Below, in pieces: positions 1-22,623 of a stretch of 44,825 nucleotides of DNA (the stretch's first letter is position 1; each line of letters starts with the position of its first letter). Under the pieces are notes generated by a model that did no database searches, was not told the DNA's origin, and worked only from the letters and a program-made list of their open reading frames with translations. A program made the translations under genes and the position numbers. The stretch spans positions 1-44,825 of the forward strand of contig JAFQJE010000026.1 of assembly GCA_017415145.1 (NCBI GenBank), written 5' to 3'. Source of the stretch: Clostridia bacterium (GTDB lineage: Bacteria; Bacillota; Clostridia; UBA1381; UBA9506).

Positions 1-1
1 A

Positions 2-46
2 AGAGCAAGAAGATGCGTTATGGTTGACGGTCTTCGTATTGTATAA
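2..46 (+). CDS. C-terminal tail of an upstream gene, possibly CoA-acylating aldehyde dehydrogenase (5' end outside window)
   Basis: Frame 2 is open from the window edge to a TAA at 44-46 and encodes a tail ending in RRCVMVDGLRIV. It is followed after 24 bases by the shell-protein gene. Basic-Cys-Val tails of this kind are, from memory, typical of the PduP/EutE CoA-acylating aldehyde dehydrogenases that sit in microcompartment loci, where the enzyme would feed the PduL phosphotransacylase encoded at 741. Only about 14 residues are visible, so the family call is an inference from the tail and neighbours. Frames 1 and 3 are also open for short distances. Confidence 0.4.
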   Translation, partial: RARRCVMVDGLRIV

Positions 47-70
47 TTTACAAGATAAAGGATTGATATT

Positions 71-715
71 ATGAACGCATTAGGAATGGTAGAAGTATAT
101 AGCTTTACAACAGCTGTTTGTGTGGCAGATATTGTAGCAAAAACTTCAGACGTAAAAATTATAGCTTTTGACAGAAACAGACCTATTAGTCCCGACGTTC
201 CTGCACCTTTGGTTATGATTGTTAAGTTCGAAGGTAGTGTTGCCGCAGTTAACGCCGCCGTTGAAGCAGGCGTTGAATACGCAAAATCAGAAGGTAAATA
301 TATTGTTTCCCACGTTATCCCCAATCCCGGCGATGGCGTAGAAAAAATGGCTTACCTTATGGATGTTAACAAAGATAAATTTAATAAAAAGCTTCCTAAA
401 AGCTTTTTAGGCGTTGATTATTCTGCACCTGCAAATAACGATGAAGCTATTGGACTTTTAGAAGTACAGGGGCTTGTTGCATCAATAGAAGGTGCAGACG
501 CTATGCTCAAAGCCGCAAATGTAAGACTCATTCACTCAGAAAAACGTCTTGGCGGCAGACTTGTTACATTTATTATCAGAGGCAAAGTAGATGCTGTAAG
601 TGCTGCAATAGCTGCAGGCGAAGAAAATGCTAAAGCTTTAGGTGAAATCTTTGGCAAGGCAGTTATTGCTCGTCCTCATGATGAAGTTATTAAGTTTTTT
701 GATATTGAAGAATAA
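71..715 (+). CDS. Tandem-domain bacterial microcompartment shell protein (BMC-T)
   Basis: This 214-residue protein contains two BMC folds. Domain 1 (about 1-100) begins ALGMVEVYSFTTAV. Domain 2 (about 125-205) begins AIGLLEVQGLVASIEGADAM, a classical BMC signature. Fused BMC pairs assemble as trimers forming pseudohexameric tiles in the protein shell of metabolosomes, often with a gated central pore. Domain 1 carries an insertion rich in Pro and Asp (about 33-45) that could shape the pore or edge. There is no Cys at a position that clearly suggests the Fe-S cluster reported for PduT. The start follows an AAGGATTG ribosome site. The gene lies 25 bases before pduL and is probably co-transcribed. 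The substrate of the compartment cannot be read from this gene alone. Confidence 0.9.
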   Translation: MNALGMVEVYSFTTAVCVADIVAKTSDVKIIAFDRNRPISPDVPAPLVMIVKFEGSVAAVNAAVEAGVEYAKSEGKYIVSHVIPNPGDGVEKMAYLMDVNKDKFNKKLPKSFLGVDYSAPANNDEAIGLLEVQGLVASIEGADAMLKAANVRLIHSEKRLGGRLVTFIIRGKVDAVSAAIAAGEENAKALGEIFGKAVIARPHDEVIKFFDIEE

Positions 716-740
716 TTTTCTATAAAGCGAGTGTATTATT

Positions 741-1379
741 ATGTACGATATTAAAGAAATAACCGAGGCTGTAAAAAAAGCAGTTATCGATTTTGAAGAA
801 AATAGAGACAAAGTTACAATCGGTGTTTCTCAGCGTCACGTTCATCTTTCCAGAAAAGATCTTGATATTCTTTTTGGCGAAGGTTTTGAACTAACCAAGA
901 AGAAAACACTTATGGGAAGAGAATTTGCTTCTGACCAGTTTGTAACACTCGTTGGACCATCTTTAAAATCCATTGAAAAAGTAAGAGTCTTAGGACCTGT
1001 TAGAAAAGATACTCAAGTTGAAATTTCGAAAACTGACACATTTATTTTAAAGGTAAGTCCTCCGGTCCGTCCTTCCGGTAAAATCGAAGGCTCAGAACGT
1101 CTTGTTTTGGTTGGTCCTTGTGGTACTGTATATCTTAACGAAGGTGTTATCATAGCAAATAGACACATTCATCTTGATCCTCAGTATGCCGCAGCCAATA
1201 ATATCTCTGATAACGAATACGTAGACGTTGTTGTTGAGGGTATCAAACCTACAAGATTTTATGACGTTCAAGTTCGTGTACGTGATGATTTCAGATGTGA
1301 AATGCACATTGATACAGATGATGCCAACTCTACACTGCTCCGTAATGGTGATAAAGTAAAAATCATCAAAAAGAAGTAA
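741..1379 (+). CDS. pduL: Phosphate propanoyltransferase PduL
   Basis: PduL interconverts acyl-CoA and acyl-phosphate inside a microcompartment, recycling CoA and leading to ATP through an acyl kinase. The 212 residues match the family length. Both halves carry the zinc-binding His motifs, SQRHVHLSRKDL near 30 and ANRHIHLDPQ near 138, plus the RPSGKIEGSERLVL stretch between them. The first 18 residues (MYDIKEITEAVKKAVIDF) look like an amphipathic helix of the encapsulation-peptide type, which would target it to the lumen. The ribosome site is weak (GCGAG at about 9 bases), so translation may depend on the upstream gene. It lies between the shell gene and the DeoR regulator. Confidence 0.93.
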   Translation: MYDIKEITEAVKKAVIDFEENRDKVTIGVSQRHVHLSRKDLDILFGEGFELTKKKTLMGREFASDQFVTLVGPSLKSIEKVRVLGPVRKDTQVEISKTDTFILKVSPPVRPSGKIEGSERLVLVGPCGTVYLNEGVIIANRHIHLDPQYAAANNISDNEYVDVVVEGIKPTRFYDVQVRVRDDFRCEMHIDTDDANSTLLRNGDKVKIIKKK

Positions 1380-7548: not shown

Positions 7549-7554
7549 AATGTC

Positions 7555-7614
7555 ATAACCTTTCTGCCCGCGTGAATTTATTTAATTATTAATACTCCGA
7601 ATTGCGGGCAAAAC
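7555..7614 (-). promoter_or_regulatory. pnp hairpin abutting the extended Shine-Dalgarno sequence
   Basis: On the minus strand TGCCCGC pairs perfectly with GCGGGCA, enclosing an AT-rich loop of about 32 bases. The 3' arm leads directly into GAAAGG before the pnp start. pfkA and upp share this arrangement. Folding or protein binding here could control ribosome access, which is inference. Confidence 0.45.
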
Positions 7615-7632
7615 GGGTATTTTGTTTTGATT

Positions 7633-7715
7633 CGCTTGGTAATAAGAGATAAGACATAAACATCAAACTTTTTTATCTTTTGGTGCTTATCTCTTACATC
7701 TTAATACACCAAGCG
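7633..7715 (-). promoter_or_regulatory. Long stem-loop in the pnp 5' leader
   Basis: In the minus-strand transcript CGCTTGGT (7715-7708) pairs with ACCAAGCG (7640-7633), and TAAGAGATAAG (7696-7686) with CTTATCTCTTA (7653-7643), giving 19 perfect pairs separated by an asymmetric internal loop. It lies between the pnp promoter and start codon. In E. coli a pnp leader stem is cut by RNase III and then destabilised by PNPase. This stem is a plausible analogue, but no sequence relation is claimed. Confidence 0.55.
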
Positions 7716-7729
7716 TCCAAAACACATAT

Positions 7730-7758
7730 ATTATAACAGATTTAATACCAAAAATCAA
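7730..7758 (-). promoter_or_regulatory. Sigma-A-type promoter for pnp
   Basis: On the minus strand TTGATT (7758-7753) and TATAAT (7735-7730) are 17 bases apart. Transcription would begin near 7723, giving a leader of about 175 bases. Together with the next entries this accounts for the 310-base gap between pnp and yybS. Confidence 0.7.
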
Positions 7759-7795
7759 GGAAAAATGCCTTTGTTACATTAATTTAATTTTACTG

Positions 7796-7824
7796 TTGAT
7801 ATTTTAAAACTATTATGTTAAAAT
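7796..7824 (+). promoter_or_regulatory. Sigma-A-type promoter for the yybS-gdpP-rplI-dnaB cluster
   Basis: TTGATA (7796-7801) and TAAAAT (7819-7824) are separated by 17 bases. The start site would be near 7831, about 28 bases before the TTG start codon of the first gene. Confidence 0.65.
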
Positions 7825-7858
7825 ATAAGTTACGATATTATGAGCAGGAGTCTTTTCA

Positions 7859-17030: not shown

Positions 17031-17660
17031 TTATATTGTACCAAAAAGTCTATCGCCCGCATCACCCAATCCCGGAACTATATAGCCTTTTTCATTTAAT
17101 TTTTCATCTACTGTACCAATAAACAATTCAATATCTGGATGTGCCTTCATAACTGCTTCAACACCCTCAGGTGCTCCGATTATACACATGAGCTTAATTC
17201 GCTTTGCACCGCGTTTTTTTATGAAATCAATAGCCGCAGCAGCACTACCGCCCGTAGCAAGCATAGGGTCTAAAACCAACACCTGTCTTTCGTCAATATC
17301 AGGTGGTAACTTGCAGTAATATTCTTTGGGTTCTAATGTTTCGTGGTCACGGTACAAACCAACGTGACCTACTTTTGCCGCCGGAATGATACTCATAAGT
17401 GCATCAACCATACCTAATCCTGCCCGAAGAATAGGAACAAGTGCTACTTGCTTTGCAATAAATTTGCCTGTTGTTTCAGCCAAGGGAGTCTTTACAGGCT
17501 GAGATACCATAGATAAATCTCTGGTTGCTTCGTAACCCATTAAAAGAGAAATTTCATAGACCAATTCACGAAAATCCTTAACTGTAGTATTTTCATCACG
17601 AATCATCGAAATTTTGTGTAAAATCAACGGGTGTGTCATTACGTGTACTCTTTCGTTCAT
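17031..17660 (-). CDS. upp: Uracil phosphoribosyltransferase
   Basis: Upp converts uracil and PRPP to UMP. From ATG at 17660 the product is 209 residues, exactly the usual length. The PRPP loop [17 protein letters not shown] is near 122-138, and the uracil-binding C-terminus is [21 protein letters not shown] nine codons upstream would extend the protein beyond family length and overlaps the ribosome site, so it is rejected. The leader contains the hairpin-plus-AGAAAGG arrangement also seen before pfkA and pnp. Confidence 0.97.
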
Positions 17661-17673
17661 AGTGTATATCCTT

Positions 17674-17694
17674 AGCCTTTCTGCCAAATCGGCA
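17674..17694 (-). promoter_or_regulatory. Short hairpin abutting AGAAAGG in the upp leader
   Basis: TGCC and GGCA pair across a GATTT loop on the minus strand, and the 3' arm runs into AGAAAGG. AAGGA, 8 bases from the ATG, is the better placed ribosome site, so the AGAAAGG part may be a conserved protein or ribosome contact. This is the third copy of the arrangement. Confidence 0.35.
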
Positions 17695-17786: not shown

Positions 17787-17814
17787 TTGTATTTTCAAAA
17801 AAATATGTTATAAT
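17787..17814 (+). promoter_or_regulatory. Sigma-A-type promoter for potABCD-dus
   Basis: TTGTAT (17787-17792) and a perfect TATAAT (17809-17814) are 16 bases apart. Transcription would begin near 17821, leaving a leader of about 144 bases before potA. Confidence 0.65.
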
Positions 17815-17845
17815 GAAAGTACAAAGTGAATAATTCATTTTTTTG

Positions 17846-17915
17846 TATGCAATTTTGCATATTTTTAAATGTGGGGTGTCGGACGCATAAGAACGATGTG
17901 TGTTCCGGCTTTTAT
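17846..17915 (+). promoter_or_regulatory. Two-hairpin leader of the pot operon with attenuator-like second stem
   Basis: The leader first carries the palindrome TATGCAATTTTGCATA (17846-17861). A second stem pairs GTCGGACGCATA (17878-17889) with TGTGTGTTCCGGC (17897-17909), 12 pairs with one bulge and three G-T pairs, loop AGAACGA, followed by TTTTATTTTTG. A stem plus T tract upstream of the coding region is the form of a transcription attenuator. A polyamine-sensing role is an inference from the downstream genes. Confidence 0.5.
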
Positions 17916-17964
17916 TTTTGTTATGACATATTTTTACATAAATCGTAGTTTAGGAGGGTGATAA

Positions 17965-19002
17965 ATGTCCAACGCTATTATTGAACTTAAAAACATTTCC
18001 AAAAGCTTTGGTGAAGAGGATATTCTTGAAAATTTCAGCGTTGAGATTGCAAGACATGAATTTGTTACCATACTAGGTCCTTCCGGTTGCGGCAAGACTA
18101 CTATGCTGCGCTTAATCGGAGGCTTTGAAACCCCTGATAATGGTCAGATTTTTTTTGACGGAGAAGATATTACTAATCTTCCCCCTTATAAAAGACGTCT
18201 CAATACTGTATTTCAAAAATATGCTCTTTTTCCGCATATGAACGTTTTTGACAACGTAGCTTTCGGGTTAACTATAAAGAAAATCGACAAAAATATCATA
18301 AAAGAAAAAGTAAGCGAAGTTTTAAAGCTTGTTAATTTAAGCGGTTTTGAAAAACGAAATATCGACTCTCTTTCAGGTGGTCAGCAACAGCGAATTGCTA
18401 TAGCAAGAGCGTTAGTTAACGAACCTGAAGTTCTCCTTCTAGATGAACCTTTAGGTGCCCTTGACTTAAAACTTCGTCAGGAAATGCAACTGGAACTGAA
18501 AAAAATACAGAAAAAGTTAGGCATTACCTTTATTTATGTTACTCATGACCAGGAAGAAGCTCTTACTATGTCTGATGAAATTATCGTTATGAATAACGGT
18601 AAAATTCAGCAAAAAGGCTCACCTATTGATATTTATAATGAACCTGAAAATGCTTTTGTTGCAAGCTTTATCGGCGAAAGTAACATTATAGATGGCATTA
18701 TGCAGAAAGACTTTTTAGTTGAATTTGCAGGCACAACCTTTGAATGTCTTGACAAAGGCTTTGATGATTACGAGTTTGTAGACGTTGTAATTCGTCCTGA
18801 AGATATTAAGTTCGACAAGGAAAAAGGCAAAATTGAAGGCGTTGTCAATTCAGTTGTATTTAAAGGTGTTCACTACGAAATGAGAATAAGTGCAGCAGAT
18901 TTTGACTGGATAGTTCACTCTACTACTATGGAGCCTGTAGGCAGTAGAGTGTACCTTGATTTTTATCCTAATGATATCCATATTATGAAGAAGGTGAAGT
19001 AA
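17965..19002 (+). CDS. potA: Spermidine/putrescine ABC transporter ATP-binding protein
   Basis: PotA powers polyamine import. The 345 residues contain Walker [11 protein letters not shown] (about 38-47), the Q-loop in [10 protein letters not shown], the ABC signature LSGGQQQR (about 138), Walker [13 protein letters not shown], and the switch His in VTHDQEE. A C-terminal TOBE regulatory domain spans about 280-345. AGGAGG is 7 bases upstream of ATG. Its stop shares one base with the potB start (TAATG). Confidence 0.95.
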
Positions 19003-19841
19003 TGAACAGACGCTGGTATTCCGCACCTTACTTAGTATGGTCACTGATATTTATAGTGGTTCCTATGTTAATGGTGGCATTTTACGGTCTTACTGTTGTT
19101 GGCGAAGACGGAAGCTTTATTTTCTCTTTGGAAAATATTAAACGTTTCTTCACTCCCCTGTATTTAGGAGTACTGGGACGTTCTGCTCTTTACGCTGCTA
19201 TCAGTACTGTTATATGCATCATTTTAGGATACCCCGCTGCTTTAATTCTTTCTTCCAAAGATTTAAAGCACAAAAGCGTTATGATGTTTTTAATAGTTAT
19301 CCCCATGTGGATGAATTTGCTTCTTCGTACCTATTCCTGGCTCTCACTTTTAGAAAATGAAGGCCTTATTAATCAGTTTTTACGATTTATAGGAATTTTA
19401 GGTAGCGAAGAATATATCCAATTTTTATATGGCGAAGGTGCGGTTATCTTTGGTATGGTTTATAATTTCCTGCCGTTTATGATATTACCCATCTATTCCG
19501 TTATGTCTAAAATGGACTACTCTATTATTAACGCCGCTGAAGACTTGGGTGCAAATAAATTTAACGTATTCAGAAAAGTAATATTTCCATTGAGTATTCC
19601 AGGTATTTCATCAGGAATAACTATGGTGTTTATTCCTGCTATTACGACATTTGCTATTTCAAGCATTTTAAGCGGTAACAACGTGAATCTCTTAGGCAAC
19701 GTTATCGAAAAGCAATTCGGCATAGGCGGAGACTGGAATTTCGGTTCTACAATGTCTTTGGTGCTTATGATTTTTATACTGATAAGCATGTTTGTTATGC
19801 CCGATTCTGAAAAAGAATCACAAGGAGGTCTGATAATATGA
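19002..19841 (+). CDS. potB: Spermidine/putrescine ABC transporter permease PotB
   Basis: PotB is one of the two membrane permeases of the polyamine importer. The 279 residues show about six membrane segments and the EAA loop NAAEDLGANKFNVFRKVIFPLSIP (about 178-201, seen here in two parts), which contacts PotA. Translation is coupled to potA by a TAATG junction and to potC by ATGA. Confidence 0.93.
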   Translation: MNRRWYSAPYLVWSLIFIVVPMLMVAFYGLTVVGEDGSFIFSLENIKRFFTPLYLGVLGRSALYAAISTVICIILGYPAALILSSKDLKHKSVMMFLIVIPMWMNLLLRTYSWLSLLENEGLINQFLRFIGILGSEEYIQFLYGEGAVIFGMVYNFLPFMILPIYSVMSKMDYSIINAAEDLGANKFNVFRKVIFPLSIPGISSGITMVFIPAITTFAISSILSGNNVNLLGNVIEKQFGIGGDWNFGSTMSLVLMIFILISMFVMPDSEKESQGGLII

Positions 19842-20608
19842 AAAAGCTCCAGAAGCTATATTTATATTTAATCCTTGTGTTTTTATATGCACCGATAATC
19901 ATTATGATTATCTACTCTTTCAACGAATCAAAATACCGTGTGTGGACGAAATTTTCTTTTAAATGGTATATTGAACTTTTCCAGGACGGACAAATAATGT
20001 CAGCACTGTCCAATACCTTATTGGTAGCAGTTATAGCATCTGTGCTCTCTACGATTTTTGGCACAATTGCAGCAATCGGTATTAATTCATTAAAAAAATG
20101 GCGTAAAAGTGCCGTTATGAACATTACAATGCTGCCCGTGTTAAATCCTGATATTGTAACAGGTATTGCTTTGATGCTCTTATTTTTCATGGCAAAGCTA
20201 CCTACAGGAAGACTGACATTGATACTTGCTCACATGAGCTTTTGTATTCCCTATGTTATATTGTCCGTTTTGCCTAAATTAAAACAAGCTGACAACAGAA
20301 CTTATGAGGCTGCTCTTGACTTAGGAGCAACACCCGCACTTGCCACATGGAAGGTTACTCTTCCTGAGATTATGCCAGGTGTGATTACAGGATTTTTGAT
20401 GGCATTTACACTGTCAATTGATGATTTTATAATCAGCTACTTTACGACAGGTCCCGGTGTTGAAAACTTGTCTATTCTTATTTACAACGCCGCTAAAAAA
20501 GGTGTAAGCCCGTCTATCAATGCACTTTCAGCACTTTTGTTTGCGGTTATTATGTTACTTTTGATTGTAATCAATGTAAGAACACATAGAGCTTCCGAAA
20601 AAGCTTAA
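19838..20608 (+). CDS. potC: Spermidine/putrescine ABC transporter permease PotC
   Basis: PotC is the second permease. The 256 residues contain about six membrane segments and the EAA loop EAALDLGATPALATWKVTLP (about 166-185). The ATG overlaps the potB stop by 4 bases, and AAGGAGG lies just upstream. FTLSIDDFIISYF near 190-202 is characteristic of PotC. Confidence 0.94.
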   Translation: MKKLQKLYLYLILVFLYAPIIIMIIYSFNESKYRVWTKFSFKWYIELFQDGQIMSALSNTLLVAVIASVLSTIFGTIAAIGINSLKKWRKSAVMNITMLPVLNPDIVTGIALMLLFFMAKLPTGRLTLILAHMSFCIPYVILSVLPKLKQADNRTYEAALDLGATPALATWKVTLPEIMPGVITGFLMAFTLSIDDFIISYFTTGPGVENLSILIYNAAKKGVSPSINALSALLFAVIMLLLIVINVRTHRASEKA

Positions 20609-20636
20609 AAATATTAAAATAAAGGGGTATGATGAA

Positions 20637-21671
20637 ATGAAAAAAATTGTATCTTTACTTTTAGCAGTGCTGCTCTGCTCTTTAATGTTTTCCGGTTGCG
20701 GCACAGACCCGTCTAAAGTCATAAGAGTTTATAATGCCTCAGAATACATTGGCGAGGGTGTTATTGAACAGTTCGAAAAAGAAACAGGCTATAAAGTTAT
20801 ATATAGCGAATTTGCATCAAATGAAGATATGTATACAAAAATTAAAACTACTTCATACGATGTTTTAATTCCATCTGACTATATGATTGACAAACTCGTA
20901 CGCGAAGAACTGGTACAACCTTTGGATTTCAATAATATTCCTAACTATCAGTTTGTGAACGAAACTTTCAAAAGCCCTTACTACGACCCAGATAATAAGT
21001 ACTCCGTACCTTATATGTGGTCAACCGTAGGTATTCTTTATGACAGTACAAAGGTGAAAGAAGAAGTTACTGATATGTCTGTTATGTGGAATAAGGACTA
21101 TTCAGGCAAAATCTTTATGCTCGATAGTGTAAGAGACTCCATTGGTATGACACTTAAAAAACTTGGATACTCTGTTAACACAACAAACGATGACGAACTG
21201 AATGAAGCAAAAAAGGAGTTGCTTACTCAGCGTGAGCTTATTTTAGGTTATGTTACAGATGAAGTCAAGGACAAAATCATCTCCGGCGAGGGTTCATTAG
21301 GTCTTGTTTATTCAGGCGAAGCCGGCAAAGCTATGGCTGAAAAAGATACATTAAAATATGCAATTCCCGAAAACGGCACTATTTACTGTGTTGATGCTAT
21401 GGTTATTCCTGCAAACTCACAAAATAAGACAGGAGCAGAAGCCTTTATAAACTATATGCACAAACCCGAAATTGCAGCTCAGAATGCATTGGAAACATTC
21501 TATGGAATTACAAATGTAAGAGGCTTGGAATTACTTCCTGATGCTATTAAAAACAACAAAGGCTTATATCCTGATGCGACAATCCTTGAAAAGAGCGAAA
21601 TGCTAAAGAGCGAAGGTAATATAAATCAGAAATACTTAGAAATATGGAATCAGATTACAGCTGCAAATTAA
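20637..21671 (+). CDS. potD: Spermidine/putrescine-binding lipoprotein PotD
   Basis: PotD captures polyamines outside the membrane. The 344 residues start with a lipoprotein signal peptide (Lys-Lys, hydrophobic core, lipobox FSGC with Cys at about 21). The mature domain follows with VIRVYNASEYIGEGVIEQFE and SYDVLIPSDYMIDKLVRE, typical of PotD. Aromatic and acidic residues such as YMWSTVGILYD agree with a polyamine site. AAAGGGGT precedes ATG. It ends one base before the dus start. Confidence 0.94.
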   Translation: MKKIVSLLLAVLLCSLMFSGCGTDPSKVIRVYNASEYIGEGVIEQFEKETGYKVIYSEFASNEDMYTKIKTTSYDVLIPSDYMIDKLVREELVQPLDFNNIPNYQFVNETFKSPYYDPDNKYSVPYMWSTVGILYDSTKVKEEVTDMSVMWNKDYSGKIFMLDSVRDSIGMTLKKLGYSVNTTNDDELNEAKKELLTQRELILGYVTDEVKDKIISGEGSLGLVYSGEAGKAMAEKDTLKYAIPENGTIYCVDAMVIPANSQNKTGAEAFINYMHKPEIAAQNALETFYGITNVRGLELLPDAIKNNKGLYPDATILEKSEMLKSEGNINQKYLEIWNQITAAN

Positions 21672-21672
21672 T

Positions 21673-22623
21673 ATGACAAATTTTTATAATAACAAAATTT
21701 TCTTAGCCCCTATGGCGGGTGTCACAGACCTTGCGTTTCGTACACTATGTCGGGAATATGGTGCAGACCTTGTAGTTTCTGAAATGATAAGCTCAAGGGG
21801 TCTTCACTACAAAGACAAAAAAACAAACGATTTACTGAAAACAAATGATATCGAAGCACCATTAATAGTTCAGCTATTCGGAAATGAACCCGAGGTAATG
21901 GCTGAAGCCGCTAAAATTCTAGAGGATAGCGGTGTTAAATATCTTGATATCAATATGGGATGCCCTGCTCCAAAGATTGTAAAAAACGGTGACGGTTGTT
22001 CGCTTATGCGTAACGAAGTTTTGGCAGGTAGCATTGCAGAATCGGTCGTTCGCGCCGTCAAAATCCCTATCAGCGTGAAATTTCGTGCAGGTTGGGATAA
22101 GGATTCCATAAATGCCGTATCCTTTGCAAAAACCATGGAAAATGCAGGCGTTTCCTGTGTTACAGTTCACGGCAGAACCAAGGACCAGTTTTATTCAGGA
22201 AATGCCGATTACAATATAATAAAACAGGTTCGCGAGGCGGTAAGCATTCCCGTAATTGCAAACGGTGATGTAACAGATGGTAATTCTGCAAAGAAAATCT
22301 TGGAAGAAACGGGTTGTAGCAGCTTAATGGTCGGACGTGGTTCATTGGGCAATCCTTTCATATTTAAAGAAATTAAGACAACTTTTGAAGGCAATAGTAC
22401 TACCTGTATACCTTTATCAGAAAAACGCAAAGCACTTCTTCGTCATATCGAACTGATGGAAGAATATAAACCTGAACATATAGGCGTTCCTGAAATGCGA
22501 AAACATTTTGCATGGTATTTGAAAGGCATTCCCCATTCAGGCAAATACAAGCTTGAAGCATTTTCCGCAAAAACCTATAATGAAATGAAAAATTTAACTA
22601 AAGCAATTTTTTTAAAAAAATAA
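21673..22623 (+). CDS. dus: tRNA-dihydrouridine synthase (DusB-like)
   Basis: Dus enzymes use FMN and NADPH to reduce uridine to dihydrouridine in tRNA. The 316-residue protein has the FMN-barrel start LAPMAGVTDLAFRTLCRE, the active-site region LDINMGCPAPKIVKNGDG (about 95-112), the VTVHGRTKDQFYSG region and VIANGDVTD. It begins one base after the potD stop, with no evident Shine-Dalgarno sequence, which suggests translational coupling to the transporter genes. The operon ends at the stem immediately downstream. Confidence 0.94.
   Translation: MTNFYNNKIFLAPMAGVTDLAFRTLCREYGADLVVSEMISSRGLHYKDKKTNDLLKTNDIEAPLIVQLFGNEPEVMAEAAKILEDSGVKYLDINMGCPAPKIVKNGDGCSLMRNEVLAGSIAESVVRAVKIPISVKFRAGWDKDSINAVSFAKTMENAGVSCVTVHGRTKDQFYSGNADYNIIKQVREAVSIPVIANGDVTDGNSAKKILEETGCSSLMVGRGSLGNPFIFKEIKTTFEGNSTTCIPLSEKRKALLRHIELMEEYKPEHIGVPEMRKHFAWYLKGIPHSGKYKLEAFSAKTYNEMKNLTKAIFLKK

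Follow-up and report, generated by a model that had tools for sequence, protein, structure and literature searches.

Leaders that carry a premature terminator are already known from polyamine genes. Naville and Gautheret (2010, PMC2965389) describe, in a figure legend, an ABC-leader with a premature terminator before the potABCD genes of two Pasteurellaceae, Haemophilus somnus and Pasteurella multocida. The spermidine riboswitch (PMC10853860) is a SAM-I variant in which spermidine triggers termination at polyamine biosynthesis genes; natural polyamine-sensing RNAs have been a matter of dispute, and the same paper judges the claims that preceded this class unconvincing. In Borrelia burgdorferi, spermidine is reported to decrease the full-length pot mRNA and to increase short 5' RNAs at potB (PMC10319736), and other polyamine-linked motifs are treated in PMC8632094 and PMC11477304.

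Here we describe a leader that precedes the potABCD-dus operon of a gut bacterium and appears to be new and restricted to its genus. It lies in a stretch of 44,825 nucleotides of Clostridia bacterium contig JAFQJE010000026.1, which we call the window. Like the Pasteurellaceae ABC-leader, it places a premature terminator in the leader of potABCD, but the hosts of the ABC-leader are Gammaproteobacteria and the two are set side by side by a figure-legend description, not by structure (PMC2965389). With the spermidine riboswitch, which is an off-switch, it shares a Firmicute leader RNA, an intrinsic terminator and polyamine genes; the riboswitch differs in having a SAM-I fold and in serving biosynthesis genes, whereas the window leader precedes a transporter (PMC10853860). 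The Borrelia RNA ends inside potB (PMC10319736), whereas the predicted 3' end in the window falls in the potA leader. We counted the precedents of PMC2965389 and PMC10853860 in favor of attenuation, and we lean, with modest confidence, toward reading the potABCD-dus 5' leader as a lineage-specific cis-regulatory attenuator RNA.

Architecture of the leader and its operon

The initial annotation had described a promoter, a palindrome and a 12-pair stem with a T tract before potA, and this layout is present in the sequence. The features, all on the forward strand, are as follows:

17787 to 17814, forward strand: potA promoter, read from the sequence and conserved in the related genome G002
17836 to 17871, forward strand: two-tier hairpin P1, from folding and the two-species alignment
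17858 to 17923, forward strand: 66-nt block identical in G002 (locus L062), from the alignment
17872 to 17877, forward strand: G-rich linker TGGGGT between P1 and the terminator, identical in both species
17878 to 17909, forward strand: terminator hairpin of 12 pairs and one bulged base with the 7-nt loop AGAACGA, from folding, shuffles and the alignment
17910 to 17919, forward strand: T tract TTTTATTTTT, read from the sequence, the predicted 3' end of a short RNA
17952 to 17964, forward strand: conserved potA Shine-Dalgarno region, from the sequence and the comparison with G002
17965 to 22623, forward strand: potA-potB-potC-potD-dus operon, from gene spacing, gene order and family profiles

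Read 5' to 3', the leader thus consists of a TG-TATAAT promoter, the palindrome, the 12-pair stem and the T tract, followed by potA at 17965. The -10 element TATAAT (17809-17814) has an upstream TG (extended -10) and is separated by a 16-nt spacer from a weak -35 element (TTGTAT, 17787-17792, three of six positions). This promoter, missing from the output of a simple consensus promoter scan, is conserved in G002, and transcription would start near 17821. The lower stem of P1 pairs CATTT with AAATG (17836-17840 with 17867-17871) and is invariant between both species; a U-rich internal loop separates it from the upper stem, TATGCA/TGCATA (17846-17851 with 17856-17861), which is the palindrome itself. 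The latter, TATGCAATTTTGCATA at 17846-17861, spans 16 bp with perfect arms of 7 bp. Directly 3' of the terminator stem lies TTTTATTTTTG (17910-17920), and a hairpin with a U tract is thereby found between the promoter and the first gene.

A perfect 16-bp dyad just downstream of a promoter also suits control by a protein. The palindrome could be a DNA operator, or the P1/linker RNA could be bound by a repressor or by an antiterminator protein, and the terminator would then be an expression platform or incidental. We regard this reading as fairly unlikely, and the evidence on it is given below with the conservation data and with the regulators of related operons.

PotA scores above the NCBIfam cut-offs for the spermidine/putrescine ATPase; PotB, PotC and PotD have polyamine permease and binding-protein families as their best matches, yet fall under the NCBIfam equivalog cut-offs, a point that we counted against the reading favored here. 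The last gene of the operon is dusB, and its placement on the same transcript as potABCD, proposed in the initial annotation, is supported by gene spacing and by the identical gene order in G002. The order tilS-hpt-ftsH-YqeY-leader-potABCD-dus is common to the window and G002, the first four names being those that we take the window's genes to have from their translations. In the window, upp (17031-17687) stands between YqeY and the potA promoter, and G002 has no upp there. Elsewhere, weak matches to Spermine_synth that barely exceed the cut-off (PF01564, cut-off 22.9 bits) were observed at L124 (G000:C18:12017-12346, 28.7 bits) and L125 (26.9 bits), weak candidates for spermidine synthesis in the genus.

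Conservation between two species of the genus

G002, a congener known as a yak-colon MAG, is the only relative found to carry the same leader, and its PotB is 87% identical to that of the window's own genome (G000). The two species are well diverged at silent positions, with fourfold-degenerate sites 47% identical (822 sites, seven common genes). Against this background, the 66-nt block is the longest exact run in three aligned blocks of about 21 kb; the next-longest runs, of 61 and 57 nt, both lie inside window positions 1-760. Identity is 86/100 in the 100 nt before the block and 30/41 in the 41 nt after it, and conservation returns at the Shine-Dalgarno region with a 32-nt exact run (17947-17978). 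With sites taken as independent, the chance of a 66-nt run at one given place is 2e-7 at 79% identity, and it rises with the assumed identity to 1e-5 at 84% and 1e-3 at 90%. Since the run is less extreme at rates near those just upstream, the evidence lies in the conservation of the whole leader and not in the run alone.

Between the two species, no base differs in the hairpin loop, in the bulge or in the TGGGGT linker. A bare terminator requires only pairing and a U tract, so that the fixed loop and linker point to something more than a bare terminator; judged from this comparison, the core of the leader is under sequence-level constraint beyond the needs of termination. That the leader's stop signal has stayed identical in a related species suggests that the leader probably controls the polyamine-uptake genes. 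Located 3' of the promoter, the block has remained linked to potA despite a change of the divergent neighbor, which is upp in the window and YqeY in G002; as upp is found there in the window only, the neighbor has changed while the pot leader stayed.

P1 and the 12-pair terminator fit both species, with 46/46 cells paired. The sole varying pair belongs to the upper P1 stem, where G002 has U-A in place of C-G, a symmetric double change in the palindrome, and in a control with two sequences and one double change, 248/500 shuffles reached covariation as high. Such a change would fit an RNA stem and a DNA operator equally. It preserves dyad symmetry, as expected of an operator under protein control; against such control, most of the invariant 66 nt fall outside the palindrome, and it is the palindrome that changed.

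A 30-codon frame crosses the terminator from ATG 17869 to a TGA overlapping the potA Shine-Dalgarno, open in both species and with the same end point, and ribosomes on it would open the hairpin. We hold control by such a leader peptide to be very improbable. No Shine-Dalgarno precedes ATG 17869, the tail of the frame differs freely between the species, and third codon positions are invariant in its conserved part, compared with the 47% identity of silent sites elsewhere, a constraint that resembles that on an RNA and not that on a protein.

Outside the pot locus, the intergenic stretch 7549-7858 of the window has exact runs of 37, 39 and 41 nt in common with G002 and showed no plausible ORF, tRNA or Rfam match. 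It is possibly a second leader or promoter region under constraint.

Folding and terminator strength

The terminator scores -13.2 and -14.9 kcal/mol in two registers of one hairpin. The best of 60 dinucleotide shuffles reached -9.8 kcal/mol, so that 0/60 were as strong in the combined score of hairpin and T tract. Sequence, shuffle test and the extreme conservation between two species thus all support the attenuator-like layout that had been proposed. Folded as a whole, the leader is unexceptional (z -1.47, 13/200 shuffles equally good), and the fold of the hairpin region 17866-17920 is moderately better than shuffles (z -2.71, 4/200).

In folding of successively longer prefixes, the terminator forms once its 3' arm is made and dominates at every length tried from 90 nt. 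AUGUG at 17869-17873 has two possible partners, CAUAU in P1 and CGCAU in the terminator arm (17884-17888); on the fragment that ends at 17893, these pairings reach about -4 kcal/mol. Among such alternatives, no competitive antiterminator was found in the isolated leader, which in these folding models argues against a simple self-contained switch; if the leader switches, a bound factor would therefore probably be needed.

The dominance of the terminator also agrees with an unregulated element, either a partial terminator of fixed strength that reduces pot expression, or the 3' end of a trans-acting small RNA whose function explains the constraint; a promoter and a terminator about 100 nt apart are the layout of a small-RNA gene too. 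We nevertheless consider this reading unlikely. There is hardly space for a second promoter between 17919 and potA (17965), and pot expression must therefore pass the terminator or come from upstream; the return of conservation at the Shine-Dalgarno region also stands against it.

Under the attenuator reading that we favor, the TG-TATAAT promoter would give an RNA of about 100 nt that folds into P1, the invariant G-rich linker and the intrinsic-terminator hairpin, and a variable fraction of polymerases would stop at about 17915. Read-through into potA would be set by a factor, either a small molecule or an RNA-binding protein, that recognizes P1, the linker and the hairpin loop. As no alternative pairing seen comes near the strength of the terminator (-13 kcal/mol), termination is probably the default, relieved by the bound factor. 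To judge from the downstream genes alone, the most likely signal would be polyamine status, and polyamine control of the potABCD-dus leader is plausible.

A more specific proposal is that the P1-linker-terminator RNA of about 85 nt constitutes a new class of very small riboswitches that respond to a polyamine or related cation, in which a ligand at the invariant linker and loop decides between termination and read-through and which replaces, in this genus, the ldcC RNA of its relatives. We consider this improbable. A compact leader that holds the longest unchanged stretch of its neighborhood and precedes a polyamine importer would offer a cheap test case for a polyamine-sensing RNA.

Distribution of the leader

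The initial annotation had recognized no published riboswitch consensus in the leader, and Rfam 15 agrees: the window has no match at the gathering cut-off, and permissive searches with the leaders of both species returned sub-threshold matches only (E 1 to 8.8), so that a known riboswitch is ruled out against Rfam at both thresholds. The SAM clan gave no match on the leader at E<=10, and a SAM-I-like four-helix aptamer was not found. The leader is also short before its terminator relative to what we take to be the size of a SAM-I aptamer.

A PotB match (E<=1e-30) was found in 45 of 61 genomes, that is, the window's own and 60 relatives. By DNA search, three of 95 genomes of the order gave any match to the leader: G000, G002 and a third with a match of 26 nt. 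A corrected two-species covariance model (R2) scored 121 bits in G000 and 120 bits in G002, and no more than 25.1 bits, with weak chance-level matches only, in 40 relatives, 391 genomes of the class and 398 of the phylum, these sets overlapping with one another and with the order set searched by DNA. The match at 25.1 bits (L159, second by covariance) was rejected as a loose alignment beside unrelated ORFs. Neither PotB nor the leader was found in the third genome of the genus, G001, which is 54% complete; a 23-nt exact pattern of the leader was not found in IMG/VR. In a GTDB protein scan that gave 79 loci, L062 alone was above 60% PotB identity. A repeated element was rejected, as BLAST found one leader copy per genome and the other matches in the window's own genome are short and at chance level. 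Among the genomes searched, the leader thus appears to be restricted to the genus, and the conserved stem that the initial annotation expected upstream of pot genes in relatives is present in the congener G002 and absent from every other genome searched. A literature search that covered few subscription papers found no published account of this leader.

Control of the pot operon in relatives

Different controls precede this transporter operon within one order and its relatives: an XRE-cupin regulator gene, the ldcC RNA with a terminator, and the present leader. The XRE-cupin gene lies upstream of potA in at least 28 of 91 loci examined elsewhere, a lower bound because 19/91 had under 600 nt upstream, and this suggests that pot operons are often under protein control. 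For the window leader such control is weakened by the lack of a close XRE-cupin homologue (E<=1e-10) in the three genomes of the genus, which are 54-85% complete. The motif CCACCAAGTTTTTAAAGGAG, found before potA in many Clostridia, resembled a leader but belongs to the XRE-cupin regulator gene, of which it forms the 3' end.

RF02440 (SpF59_sRNA / ldcC RNA, Rfam 15) was detected in 21 of 95 genomes of the order and is absent from G000-G003; its conserved GACC..AAGGCCAUACGGACAGCCGGGUC core had no match in G000, G001 or G002 and none on the leader at E<=10. A PotA-like gene comes next in 15/21 loci and an Orn/Lys/Arg decarboxylase in 2/21 (L141, L146), one further locus ending at a contig edge and three having no assigned next gene. 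In each of the 15 loci with a PotA-like gene, a terminator-like hairpin (-12.5 to -21.0 kcal/mol) ends within 60 nt of potA, and we counted these 15/15 pot loci of the same order in favor of the attenuation reading. Aligned (L129, L131-L140, L142-L145), they are conserved far past the 54 positions of Rfam and show a closed multi-branch structure that spans about 190 columns, with double changes in 11/52 predicted pairs, partly in the terminator stem, in loci that are not independent because the species are related. The 54-nt model is probably the 5' part of a larger RNA of about 190 nt, which would be a candidate class of polyamine-related leaders that extends beyond the Rfam entry. RF02440 RNAs and the window leader occur in the same family and order and both precede potA, with a terminator directly ahead of it, but the former have about 190 nt before the terminator, are unrelated in sequence and were not found in the window's genus. 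Descent of the window leader from the ldcC RNA has no support, R2 having given two chance-level matches (15.8 bits) in 24 loci.

In a separate set, a strong terminator within 150 nt before potA was found in only 6 of 90 pot loci, in a scan that required a PotA/PotB match pair, counted short or N-rich rows as misses and used thresholds slightly different from those applied to the 15 RF02440 loci. The six are the window, G002, L030 (an RF02440 locus), L094, L050 and L052, the last two with a promoter after the terminator, as judged by eye. The scan left out L031, L039 and L062 (repeats of L001/L002) and L081, as well as L058, L092 and L099 (no potA upstream) and L041 and L057 (no start found).

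In G003, which has the closest PotB outside the genus, the potA leader holds a different and very stable hairpin without a T tract (L003:376-461, z -4.0). The CCUUUC of its 3' side could pair with GAAAGG of the Shine-Dalgarno region, suggesting that translational control is possible in this species.
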